Source of the DNA: Armatimonadota bacterium
GTDB taxonomy: Bacteria; Sysuimicrobiota; Sysuimicrobiia; Sysuimicrobiales; Humicultoraceae
DNA length: 64,000 nt
Assembly: GCA_031459855.1 (NCBI GenBank)
Contig: JAVKHP010000001.1
Span: 1,701,808 to 1,765,807 of the forward strand
Reading direction: 5' to 3'
A program made the position numbers and the translations under genes. The first letter of the stretch is position 1; each line of letters begins with the position of its first letter. This document shows positions 29,101-33,004 of this stretch, piece after piece. A model generated the notes under the pieces. The model had not been told where the DNA came from. It saw only the letters and a list, made by a program, of their open reading frames with translations, and did not search any database.

Positions 29101-29868
29101 CTAGAATGGCGTCGTGCCCGCGGCGACGGTCACGAGCGCCCAGGCGACGAGCGCTGCGCCTGCGGGTTTCGCCAGGCGCCTGCCCCAGGGCATCGTACGT
29201 TCCGCCGTCATCAGGGCTCCCAGCCCGAGCATCCACCCCAGGTGCGCGACCCCCACCGCGAACATCACCAGCATCAGCGTCCAGCAGCAGCCGACACAGA
29301 AGAGACCGTGGTGCAACCCCAGGGCCCACGCCTCCCGGCCGGGGGCGCTGCCGCGCCAGCGTCCGGCGACGAAGGCCAGCGGCGAACGGCACACGGCAAG
29401 GCAGCGCTCCTTCAGCCTGGTGAACTGGTACGCGCCCGCTGCCAGCAGGACCGCAGGCGGGAGCAGGGCGTCCAGCCCGGCGACGCGCTCGGCTACCGCG
29501 TGCACGACGGTGTCTCCTGCCAGCGCCGCCGCGCCCACCGCCGCCCACATGGTCAGATAGCCCGCGCCGAGGCGCGCCAGCAGCCCTGCACGCCCGGGCC
29601 GCGCCGCCACCATGCGGCGGAACAGGGTGAGCAGTGGCAGGCTGCCGGGGAGCATCATGGCCACGGTCATGACGAGCCAGCCGACGAGGAACACGGCCGC
29701 CCGGGAGGCCGGGGCTGGAGCCACCGCCCCGGCCTCCCGGTGGCTGAGCCAGATCGCGTGCGGCGATGCACCCCACCACGCCATCACCAGCCATGCCGCG
29801 CCGATCAGCACCACGAGCGCCAGCCGGTACCAGCGGGCGTCGTCGGGGGTGCGGAACGCACCGATCAC
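29101..29868 (-). CDS. DUF2182 integral membrane protein
   Basis: This 255-residue membrane protein has about six helices. The DUF2182 (COG5486) hallmarks are the helix VGWLVMTVAMMLPGSLPLL, the loop YQFTRLKERCLAVCRSPLAF with two cysteines, and GLHHGLFCVGCCWTLMLVMF with three more. The function is not established; the conserved cysteines suggest metal binding. It follows the DUF1326 gene by 18 bases on the same strand, the pairing in which these two families are commonly found. Confidence 0.88.
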   Translation of the reverse strand: MIGAFRTPDDARWYRLALVVLIGAAWLVMAWWGASPHAIWLSHREAGAVAPAPASRAAVFLVGWLVMTVAMMLPGSLPLLTLFRRMVAARPGRAGLLARLGAGYLTMWAAVGAAALAGDTVVHAVAERVAGLDALLPPAVLLAAGAYQFTRLKERCLAVCRSPLAFVAGRWRGSAPGREAWALGLHHGLFCVGCCWTLMLVMFAVGVAHLGWMLGLGALMTAERTMPWGRRLAKPAGAALVAWALVTVAAGTTPF

Positions 29869-29886
29869 CGTCGATCCTGGGACCGG

Positions 29887-30489
29887 TCAGGCAGTGAACC
29901 GAAACGGTCCGAGCACCGCGTTGCGCCCCTGGTACTCCCAGTGGATGCGGTGCTGCGGCACGTCGGCCCGGAACGAGGTCGCTTTGCCGACCGTGGCGGC
30001 AGACCCGGGAATGGTGGAGAACACGCTGTCCACCAGCTTCGTGGGGTGCCCCTGGAGGTCGGTGAGGGGTTCCATCTCGCTGGCCACGGCGTCGCCGATC
30101 CTGATGTGGCCCTTGCCGTCACGGAAGCTGAAGTCGATGGGCGCGTCGTAGACGCCCAACACCTCGCCGACCAGCGGCGCCAGGTCGGCGAGCGGGCCGC
30201 CCAGCCTACCGGTGTGCGCTGCCAGGATGGCCTCCTTCTGCTGCTGGGTCGCCCGGCTGTCGACGAAGACCACCGCCTTCCAGTTGCCCTTGAGGACGTT
30301 CCCGGGAATCTGGACCGCCAGGGCCAGCGTCAGACCGGCCACGTCGACGCCGCCGATCTGCCCGCGGTCGTAATGGTACGCGATGAGGCCCTGGCAGGCC
30401 CCGCCGTCGGGGTCCTGCCCCACCCAGCAGGGGCACACCGCCGCACACGAGCACGCTTCCAGCATCTGCCCTTCCAGTGCGTATCCCAT
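29887..30489 (-). CDS. DUF1326 domain protein
   Basis: This 200-residue protein starts with MGYALEGQMLEACSCAAVCP and a further CW, giving cysteines at 13, 15, 19 and 21, the conserved N-terminal feature of DUF1326. The rest is soluble, with a C-terminal strand FRADVPQHRIHWEYQGRNA. ATG 30489 is used because GGGGGAG lies 5 bases upstream. The family has no assigned activity; it is usually encoded next to DUF2182, as here, so a joint role at the membrane, possibly metal related, is inferred. A 12-bp palindrome lies about 100 bases upstream. Confidence 0.88.
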   Translation of the reverse strand: MGYALEGQMLEACSCAAVCPCWVGQDPDGGACQGLIAYHYDRGQIGGVDVAGLTLALAVQIPGNVLKGNWKAVVFVDSRATQQQKEAILAAHTGRLGGPLADLAPLVGEVLGVYDAPIDFSFRDGKGHIRIGDAVASEMEPLTDLQGHPTKLVDSVFSTIPGSAATVGKATSFRADVPQHRIHWEYQGRNAVLGPFRFTA

Positions 30490-30675: not shown

Positions 30676-31260
30676 CTACGCTGGCTGCGTCCCGTCGCCC
30701 AGGACCGCCTCGACCAGGTCGGCCTGCTCCAGGAAGAACGGGTCGGTCTCGACGCCGAGCGCCTCGTAGACCCGGCTGCGCAGCGCGCGCAGCGTGGCCC
30801 ACACCGCCACGTCGATGATGGCGCCGTCGTCGAGGCCGACGGCCCGCAGCCGGTCGACCTGTGCTGCCACGGGGTGCCCGGCGGCCGCCGCCAGGGCGTA
30901 GTCCAGGATGGCCACGGTGCGCGCGTCGAGTCCGGCGGTGCGGTAGTCGTGGAGCACGGCGCGCACGCGATCCAGGCCGCCCAGGTCGCGCTCGACGTCG
31001 ACGGCGTAGACCAGCACGCAGTACGTCGAGCGCAGGCGGTGGGCCACCAGCAGGCTGATCAACCGGCGCTCGTGCGGGGTGAGCGCCGAGACCTGCTTCA
31101 CGGCTGCCGTGAAGGCGTCCAGCGCGGTGGCCAGCTCAGGCCGCAGCGACAGCGCCCGGGTGGCCTCCATGACGAATCCCAGCCGTGCCAGGTCGGCTTC
31201 GTAGGCCTGCCGCAAGGCCCCCGTCACGTCGTTCTCGTCCAGCGTGCGCACCCAGGGCAT
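30676..31260 (-). CDS. AhpD/carboxymuconolactone decarboxylase-like protein with altered CxxC
   Basis: This 194-residue helical protein of the AhpD-like (peroxidase-related) superfamily shows SLRPELATALDAFTAAVKQV, LTPHERRLISLLVAHRL, the active-site helix RSTYCVLVYAVDV near residue 80 and LDYALAAAAGHP. Normal members carry CxxC followed by a histidine three residues on. Here the first cysteine is serine (STYC) and the histidine is tyrosine, so only one redox cysteine remains. A strong GGAGGCTGAGGTGAC leader precedes ATG 31260. It lies 90 bases downstream of the methyltransferase on the same strand. It may have lost classical disulfide chemistry. Confidence 0.8.
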   Translation of the reverse strand: MPWVRTLDENDVTGALRQAYEADLARLGFVMEATRALSLRPELATALDAFTAAVKQVSALTPHERRLISLLVAHRLRSTYCVLVYAVDVERDLGGLDRVRAVLHDYRTAGLDARTVAILDYALAAAAGHPVAAQVDRLRAVGLDDGAIIDVAVWATLRALRSRVYEALGVETDPFFLEQADLVEAVLGDGTQPA

Positions 31261-31350: not shown

Positions 31351-32181
31351 TCACCCCCGCGGCTTGCGCGCCGAGAAGATCACCGAGCGCGCCACGTGCG
31401 GCTGGCGCTCCGGGGGGATGAGGCGGCGCATGAGCGCGATCAGTTCCGGGGTGAACAACGGGTACTGCTCGCACTCGTCCACGCCGAACGGCAGCTCCTC
31501 CCCCCGCGCGATCTCGACGAACCCGATCTTCTGCAGCTTGCTGACGAAGACACGCTCCGCCAGGGCGCCCGAGAGTCAGCCCGCCCACGCGGCGGCGCTG
31601 GTCAGCACCTGCGGGGGCAGGTCCTCGTCCACCACGATGTCCGCCACCGCCATCCGGCCGCCTGGCCGCAGGATGCGGAACACCTCGGCGAAGGCCCGCG
31701 ACTTGCGCGGCGAGAGGTTGATCACGCCGTTGCTGATGGCGACGTCCACGCTCGCGTCGGGCAGGGGGATCGCTTCGATCTCGCCGCGCAGCCACTCCAC
31801 GTTGGTCACACCGGCCGCCTCGGCGTTGCGGGCGGCCACCGCCAGCATCTCCGGCAGCATGTCCAGCCCGATGGCCCTGCCGTCCGGCGCCACCGCGTGC
31901 GCCGCGAGGATCGTGTCGATCCCACCGCCGCAGCCCAGGTCGATGACGACCTCGCCGGGGGCGAGCGCCGCCGCCCGCACGGGGTTCCCCACACCCAGGG
32001 CCTGCGCGATGGCGCCCGGCGGGAGCAGGCGCAGCTGCTCTGCGGTGTAGAGGCGCTCGGCCACGCTGGTCGTGGTGCCGATGACGGCGCGGTAGGCCTG
32101 CCGGACGAGGTCGCGGATCCCCTCCTGGTCCAGCAGATCGTCGGTAGTGCGCACGGCCGGGTGGGGCACGTGGTGGCTCAT
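31351..32181 (-). CDS. ArsM-like SAM methyltransferase with in-frame TGA at a conserved Cys (candidate selenoprotein)
   Basis: Read through one TGA (31576-31578), the frame gives 276 residues. SAM motif I is VIDLGCGGGID at 79-89; NGVINLSPRKSRAFAEVFRI and LRPGGRMAVADIVV are typical of arsenite-methyltransferase-like enzymes. At residue 202 the sequence is AWAG-TGA-LSGAL, where the family has cysteine (GC.xGAL type). After the TGA a normal C-terminal part continues for 74 codons (LQKIGFVEIARGEELPFGV, ending ARSVIFSARKPRG). Selenocysteine insertion is the simplest reading; the alternative is a nonsense mutation, leaving a 201-residue product. ATG 32181 overlaps the anti-sigma stop (ATGA), so it is translationally coupled to that gene. 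Substrate (arsenite or another thiol-binding compound) is inferred from family only. Confidence 0.75.
31543..31578 (-). promoter_or_regulatory. Possible bacterial SECIS element after the in-frame TGA
   Basis: On the minus strand, after TGA and five bases, gggcgc can pair with gcgtgtc (one bulge, G-U pairs allowed), leaving a loop ccuggcgga. The GG in the loop is 15-16 bases after the TGA, in the range seen for bacterial SECIS hairpins. The stem is short and was folded by eye, so this is weak support. Confidence 0.35.
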
Positions 32182-32417
32182 CGCTGCTCTCCCAGGCTCC
32201 TGACGAAGGCCTCGAGCTTGTGGCGGGTCTCCGGCGGGAGCGTCACCGCCGGCCCCTCCTGCCGCAGGCGCGTGCGCAGCTGCTGGGCGAACTCCAGCTC
32301 CCCGCAGCAGTGGCGGCACAGGCCGAGGTGTTCTTCCAGCTCGCGCTCCTCGACGCGACCGAGGTTGCGGTCGAGGTACTCCCACAGGCGTGCCACGGCG
32401 TCCTTACAGCTGATCAC
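32178..32417 (-). CDS. Zinc-binding anti-sigma factor (zf-HC2 type)
   Basis: This 79-residue protein starts with VISCKDAVARLWEYLDRNLG and carries EEHLGLCRHCCGELEF, the H-x3-C-x2-C zinc motif of ZAS-type anti-sigma factors; a cysteine at position 4 may complete the site. It has no membrane segment, so it is cytoplasmic and probably senses a redox or metal signal by releasing its sigma partner. The GTG start at 32417 overlaps the sigma stop (GTGA), and its own stop overlaps the methyltransferase ATG (ATGA). The coupling strongly suggests a stoichiometric sigma/anti-sigma pair. Confidence 0.9.
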   Translation of the reverse strand: MISCKDAVARLWEYLDRNLGRVEERELEEHLGLCRHCCGELEFAQQLRTRLRQEGPAVTLPPETRHKLEAFVRSLGEQR

Positions 32418-33004
32418 GTGGACCCCTCCCGGGGCGGACTCAAGAGCCGGTGGCGCTGCGCGTACTCCCAGAGCTCCCGTTCCAGCTGGCGGCGGCCACG
32501 GTGCAGCCAGGACAGGACGGTGCCCACCGGCCGGCCGGTGATCTCGGCGATCTCGCGTGCCTTGTACCCGTAGATGTAGGCAAGGATGAGGGCCACGCGG
32601 TGCAGCGGCGGGACTTGCTGCAGGACGTCGAGGATGCGGGCGTCGTCGAAGAGCTCGAGGAAGTCGAGGTGCACGCGGTCGGAGTAGGGGAAGGGGTCGT
32701 CCTCGACGATGGTGTCGAAGAGGTCGAAGCGGTCGTCGCCCGACTCCGTGGCGGGCGCGTGCGCGTCGGCATCGACGCGGTCGTAGTACGCGCGGGTGAG
32801 GATGCGCGTGAGCCACACCCGCGGACGGTCACGGTTGCGCAGGCCCGCAAAGCCCCGGAACGCGCGCAGCAGGGCGTCCTGCACGAGGTCCTCGGCGGCG
32901 GTCCGGTTGCCGCACAGCCGCACCGCGACCGCGTACAGGTAGTCCAGGTGCGGCCGGACGACGTCTTCGAAGGTCGTGCGGGGTACGGACGAGAGCTCGG
33001 CCAT
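32414..33004 (-). CDS. ECF-type RNA polymerase sigma factor
   Basis: This 196-residue extracytoplasmic-function sigma factor has region 2 (DYLYAVAVRLCGNRTAAEDL, VQDALLRAFRGF and RVWLTRILTRAYYDR) for -10 recognition and core binding. Region 4 (QVPPLHRVALILAYIYGYKA, REIAEITGRPVGTVLSWLHR) reads the -35 element. A long acidic linker (ESGDDRFDLFDTIVEDDP) separates them. GGGGGGGA precedes ATG 33004. It is the first gene of a coupled sigma/anti-sigma/methyltransferase unit and probably autoregulates it together with the AhpD-like, DUF1326 and DUF2182 genes. Confidence 0.94.
   Translation of the reverse strand: MAELSSVPRTTFEDVVRPHLDYLYAVAVRLCGNRTAAEDLVQDALLRAFRGFAGLRNRDRPRVWLTRILTRAYYDRVDADAHAPATESGDDRFDLFDTIVEDDPFPYSDRVHLDFLELFDDARILDVLQQVPPLHRVALILAYIYGYKAREIAEITGRPVGTVLSWLHRGRRQLERELWEYAQRHRLLSPPREGST

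Follow-up and report, generated by a model that had tools for sequence, protein, structure and literature searches.

A reading frame for an ArsM-like methyltransferase in the 64,000-nucleotide stretch of DNA analyzed here (hereafter, the window) is interrupted by an in-frame TGA codon. The question raised by this locus is whether this TGA is a stop in a broken or shortened gene or a codon for selenocysteine (Sec), and, if the latter, what the enzyme may methylate. An earlier note had proposed Sec; it located the gene correctly but gave no strand, and the gene is encoded on the minus strand (32181..31351). The following features are central to the question:

31351..32181, minus strand: ArsM-like SAM-dependent methyltransferase, 276 aa with Sec202 (matches to NF008823 and Methyltransf_31; predicted model)
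31576..31578, minus strand: UGA codon 202, predicted to be read as Sec (12 other homologs in the phylum also have TGA; four same-subfamily lineages have Cys)
31541..31563, minus strand: SECIS-like hairpin with a 9-bp stem and a CGUGU loop, starting 15 nt after the UGA (comparative support; SelD cross-match)

When TGA is translated as U, the frame yields 276 residues with U at position 202 and a normal TGA stop as codon 277. As the earlier note had described, the TGA at codon 202 (TGA202) is the only one within the frame and lies in the motif AWAG-U-LSGAL, and the same frame continues for 74 codons with no other stop. In profile searches, the best curated family was NF008823 (PRK11873), arsenite methyltransferase, with a score of 240.2 bits that does not reach the cut-off of 263 bits; Methyltransf_31 was also matched. 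The predicted structure (pLDDT 93) contains the ArsM fold and a SAM-binding domain, and its best structural matches were CmArsM and CrArsM, ahead of other methyltransferases (Z 26 over 217 residues with CmArsM).

The genome (3.19 Mb, 98% complete) encodes the machinery for Sec insertion: tRNASec with a TCA (UCA) anticodon, SelB (349 bits), SelA (549 bits) and SelD (388 bits). The genes for SelA, SelB and tRNASec all lie within 6 kb of one another, and selD itself has one in-frame TGA, in the context ACAG-U-ASK. Among 43 genomes of the phylum, SelA above the cut-off was found in 33, tRNASec in 33 and SelD in 35, so that Sec use characterizes the phylum. Bacterium HR32/HRbin32 belongs to it, which agrees with a probable placement in the CSP1-3/Sysuimicrobiota lineage (compare PMC11604079). 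Thirty-five of the 36 SelD copies in the phylum carry a single in-frame TGA. In nearly all of the phylum genomes this TGA is followed by a hairpin (L015, L175-L202), mostly with a UGGCGCA stem and a GGU or CGU loop, and these post-UGA hairpins supply a usable SECIS consensus for the phylum. Genome G029 (L174, G029:C34) carries two sets of selenium genes: besides the usual Sec-type selD, it has another selA and tRNASec next to a SelD that lacks the TGA.

Homologs of the methyltransferase were identified by a search of the phylum, followed by translation and a tblastn read-out of column 202. TGA occupied this column in 13 homologous genes, the window gene included, from 12 genomes of the phylum and down to about 47% identity. 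These genes formed two groups. Group A consists of the window gene, L020, L021, L022, L024, L025, L026 and L028, with roughly 66-87% identity to the window protein across the aligned part; group B, at roughly 48-53%, consists of L027, L029, L030, L031 and L063. The four same-subfamily lineages that lack the TGA all had Cys at this column: L023, which is the same as L094 (HRbin32), L095 (Glycomyces), L096 (Nitriliruptoraceae) and L098 (a Chloroflexi MAG). Cys was also found in every more distant ArsM relative examined; L038 and L119, whose stop lies outside column 202, have Cys there as well. Thus, as alignment and read-out agree, the relatives examined have only Sec or Cys at codon 202, never Trp or another unrelated residue. 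The best 80 loci from the scan of genome collections carry some bias, because one of the two patterns used demanded Cys at column 202; the phylum search was free of this requirement. A scan of viral contigs found no relatives of the methyltransferase. In a phylogenetic tree, the Sec and Cys forms of the subfamily grouped together with support of 100/99.

The sole Cys form within the phylum, L023, is one intact reading frame in genome G037. The same genus (g20) includes G040, which has the TGA form (L028) together with tRNASec and selD, and a recent Sec-to-Cys change in this genus is possible, the hairpin still being largely intact in L023. In G037, selA, tRNASec and selD were not found, a weak absence given that this genome is only 72% complete; the same applies to G011 (also only 72% complete), in which the Sec machinery was not found despite the TGA form. 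The Cys-form genome, at this completeness, gives a weak indication that the choice between Sec and Cys may track the Sec machinery.

Per-site differences at the first, second and third codon positions were 0.136, 0.142 and 0.440 before TGA202, and 0.151, 0.119 and 0.380 after codon 218. The region 3' of the TGA is under the same purifying, protein-coding constraint as the region 5' of it.

The earlier note had also described a short hairpin with GG in the loop at a plausible distance from the TGA. A hairpin does exist 15 nt downstream, but its loop is CGUGU, which contains GU rather than GG. Its best-supported form, shared by group A, is CUGGCGGAG-CGUGU-CUUCGUCAG (31563..31541). The folding energy of this single sequence was not unusual (z = -0.29), and comparative tests were therefore used; no RNA family in Rfam matched this position. 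In group A, 98% of the pair cells of the stem are standard pairs, and the stem is kept in 7/7 sequences; among these seven, changes were one-sided only (G-U to G-C, and others), with no compensatory double changes. Group B (L027, L029-L031 and L063) has a different hairpin, GCGCUUGC-GGA-GCAAGCGC. In group A, synonymous change at codons 206-216 was 0.23 versus 0.40 elsewhere, and in group B it was 0.19 versus 0.47; the corresponding values in two sets of Cys-containing ArsM were 0.40/0.44 and 0.54/0.44. In both Sec groups, the windows of lowest synonymous change in the gene fall at the hairpin region.

The selD gene of the same genome has a post-TGA hairpin, UGGCGUA-CGUGU-UGCGCCA, whose loop is identical to that of the methyltransferase hairpin. 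A covariance model built from the methyltransferase hairpins alone gave the window hairpin, which was part of its own training, a score of 37.9 bits, and nothing else in the 64 kb exceeded 19.6 bits. Applied to ten SelD loci, the same model placed the SelD post-UGA hairpin in seven of its eight top matches, each of them individually weak (E 0.05 to 0.23). On the minus strand of the window, the methyltransferase hairpin is the only one to combine a CGUGU loop with at least 7 stem base pairs. Its conservation, the synonymous suppression and the match to the SelD hairpin agree with the SECIS-like element that the earlier note had suspected.

TGA is an ordinary stop codon in this genome, and the methyltransferase itself ends with one, so that TGA202 might be a real stop, in a pseudogene, through a sequencing or assembly error, or in a shortened methyltransferase of 201 residues. 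This is very improbable. Thirteen genes from 12 genomes that were assembled separately share this TGA, downstream codons are selected as strongly as upstream ones, the Cys form L023 is a single intact frame, and synonymous change is suppressed 3' of the codon. Decay and sequencing error in particular are refuted by the conservation of the TGA across genomes together with the downstream selection. A chance origin of TGA202 is likewise unlikely, because the codon is kept in homologs of about 47-81% identity, selection is equal on both sides and no other hairpin with this loop and a stem of 7 bp or longer occurs on this strand of the window. Reading of UGA202 as another amino acid, e.g., Trp, through a changed code or a suppressor tRNA would account for the open frame and for nothing more; it is rejected as practically negligible, since the aligned residue is always Cys, the gene uses TGA as its terminal stop, and a canonical tRNASec with SelA, SelB and SelD is present. 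The machinery, the Sec/Cys-only column and the conserved hairpin all agree with the Sec reading, and the gene is almost certainly a genuine selenoprotein gene with Sec at codon 202. When the ribosome reaches this UGA in the mRNA, SelB carrying Sec-tRNA(UCA) would presumably bind the hairpin just 3' of the codon and insert Sec.

The identity of this residue bears on what the enzyme may do. In an alignment with 5eg5 and 5evj, U202 corresponds to CmArsM Cys224 (human AS3MT Cys206), and this position is therefore retained if Sec is counted as equivalent. The two other arsenic-binding cysteines of CmArsM are replaced: Cys72 (GCG; AS3MT Cys61) by Val64 (GVG) and Cys174 (SNC; AS3MT Cys156) by Gly152 (SNG). 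Equivalents of Cys72 and Cys174 were absent from all Sec and Cys members of the subfamily examined. The label "ArsM-like" given in the earlier note thus holds for fold and ancestry, but not for the arsenic site, in which two of the three cysteines are missing. In CmArsM and human AS3MT, both Cys174/Cys156 and Cys224/Cys206 are essential, and the C174A mutant of CmArsM is inactive (PMC3877260). In these two enzymes, arsenite is bound through three ligands, methylarsenite through two and dimethylarsenite through one (PMC3877260). Because matches to Cys72 and Cys174 are missing and Cys174 is essential in the characterized enzymes, standard arsenite methylation is unlikely for a single-Sec enzyme.

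The genes around the methyltransferase provide additional information:

32178..32417, minus strand: RsrA-like zinc anti-sigma factor (HxxxCxxC), directly upstream of the methyltransferase and overlapping the sigma gene (zf-HC2; antisig_RsrA E 3.6e-11, below cut-off; synteny)
32414..33004, minus strand: ECF sigma factor, nearest to the SigH/SigR type (Sigma70_r2/r4; SigH_actino E 2e-29, below cut-off; synteny)
30676..31260, minus strand: carboxymuconolactone decarboxylase (CMD)/AhpD-like "peroxidase-related" protein, downstream neighbor (PF02627; TIGR01926 just under cut-off)
29887..30489, minus strand: DUF1326 protein, perhaps part of the same gene run (PF07040; start codon picked by eye)
29101..29868, minus strand: DUF2182/PpoB2 membrane protein (Pfam "copper chaperone"), possibly in the same gene run (PF09948)

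The assignment of the regulatory pair is one of resemblance only, as the sigma factor scored 102.7 bits against a SigH_actino cut-off of 251.55 bits and the anti-sigma factor 43 bits against an antisig_RsrA cut-off of 62.5 bits. The order sigma, anti-sigma, methyltransferase recurs in those group A loci that extend far enough to reveal it, as well as in the Cys-form loci of Glycomyces and Nitriliruptoraceae; the pair was not found in group B loci. OsmC, cupin, AhpD/CMD-like, DUF1326 and DUF2182 proteins recur near methyltransferase loci. The AhpD-like gene adjoins the methyltransferase or lies within 1 kb of it in three other loci (genomes G004, G016 and G017), DUF1326 directly follows it in G002, and DUF2182 follows DUF1326 in G002 and G036. 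The SigR/RsrA-like pair and the OsmC- and AhpD-like neighbors suggest that the gene may be induced by thiol-oxidizing or electrophile/metalloid stress.

A soft, thiol-reactive substrate would probably be held through one selenolate (Sec202) and then given the methyl group of SAM. Our tentative first choice for this substrate would be a trivalent organoarsenical in which one valence is free, or else a species of another metalloid or of a chalcogen. It is unlikely that the protein acts as a canonical ArsM in which Sec merely replaces one arsenic-binding Cys. That view has in its favor the best sequence family (NF008823), the best fold matches (ArsM structures) and the cataloging of Sec-ArsM with UxxG as known (PMC13188914); against it stand the score below the NF008823 cut-off, the subfamily-wide loss of the Cys72 and Cys174 matches, Cys forms included, set beside the inactivity of C174A in CmArsM (PMC3877260), and the presence in the same genome of a separate, Cys-type ArsM homolog (C1:1848350). 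A substrate other than arsenic, such as Se, Te, S or a small electrophilic compound methylated in a SigR/RsrA-like thiol-stress response, is conceivable but doubtful. The conserved upstream sigma/anti-sigma pair in group A, Glycomyces and Nitriliruptoraceae, its nearest relatives RsrA and SigH, the OsmC, cupin and AhpD-like neighbors and the single chalcogen ligand are consistent with it, but none of our tool results points to a thiol-specific or any other particular substrate, and the group B loci lack the sigma pair. A bolder reading, less likely than not, is that these proteins form a distinct ArsM-like branch with one essential chalcogen, usually Sec and otherwise Cys. They would then not be arsenite methyltransferases but would methylate another soft substrate, their gene being what a SigR/RsrA-like redox-stress switch common to Sysuimicrobiota-type bacteria and Actinomycetota turns on.

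Whether Sec-containing ArsM-like proteins had been described was a question left by the earlier note. Such proteins, with the same UxxG motif, are indeed on record: the Global Ocean Sampling survey yielded Sec-containing ArsM (PMC2398784), and two reviews list it as well (PMC9312934, PMC13188914), citing a 2007 paper in Science for Sec/Cys arsenite methyltransferase. The second review assigns the UxxG motif to NF008823 and to three fusion selenoproteins of ArsM or methyltransferase type (PMC13188914). Sec-ArsM (UxxG) is thus already cataloged, and the window protein, with ULSG, adds one more member rather than a new kind. It resembles the Sec arsenite methyltransferase of NF008823/PRK11873 (WP_011987699.1) in its best family match, in having U-x-x-G at the GC-x-GAL stretch and in bacterial UGA recoding, but differs in its score below the cut-off; the subfamily forms a separate, well-supported Sec and Cys clade that lacks the Cys72 and Cys174 matches, and is set beside WP_011987699.1 by family score and motif only. 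The window protein also shares an ArsM-type methyltransferase domain with UxxG with ArsM_AhpD_UU (NF041537), ArsM_DUF2284_UU (NF041536) and MTase_UXPK_star (NF047649). Unlike these, it has no fused second domain and scores far below their cut-offs (180 bits against 510 for NF041537); NF041537 fuses an AhpD domain to the methyltransferase, whereas here the AhpD/CMD-like protein is the next gene. With CmArsM, CrArsM and human AS3MT (4fr0, 6cx6, 5evj, 8xt7), it has in common the fold (Z 26 and 20) and the position of Sec202, but a single chalcogen ligand is left. The locus is also similar to the actinobacterial SigR-RsrA thiol-stress regulon in its overlapping upstream ECF sigma and HxxxCxxC anti-sigma genes, although both proteins fall below the curated cut-offs. 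What appears worth reporting here is that two arsenic ligands are lost and that the gene follows a sigma module.

The methyltransferase would be mis-annotated as truncated or broken, and the Sec reading corrects gene models in a little-studied and mostly uncultured phylum. This gene and selD together provide a clear SECIS consensus within one genome. As a single arsenic-binding residue out of three is left, either Sec or Cys, the subfamily is a natural test of the role of the residue at the Cys224 position in ArsM-type methyl transfer.

Several observations concern the neighboring genes. Redox-active AhpD proteins carry a CxYC motif. The AhpD/CMD-like neighbor (30676-31260, minus strand) has SxYC (STYCVLV) in its place and no Sec, and may therefore lack the usual peroxidase activity. 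The DUF1326 and DUF2182/PpoB2 genes (29101-30489, minus strand) follow in this order and in the same direction downstream of the methyltransferase, and this pair, directly after the methyltransferase in G002, hints at a link to metals. In Glycomyces (L095, 7036-7584) and the Chloroflexi MAG (L098, 1636-2331), a second, more distant ArsM-like methyltransferase with a single Cys lies beside the Cys form, which suggests a tandem methyltransferase pair at these Cys-form loci.
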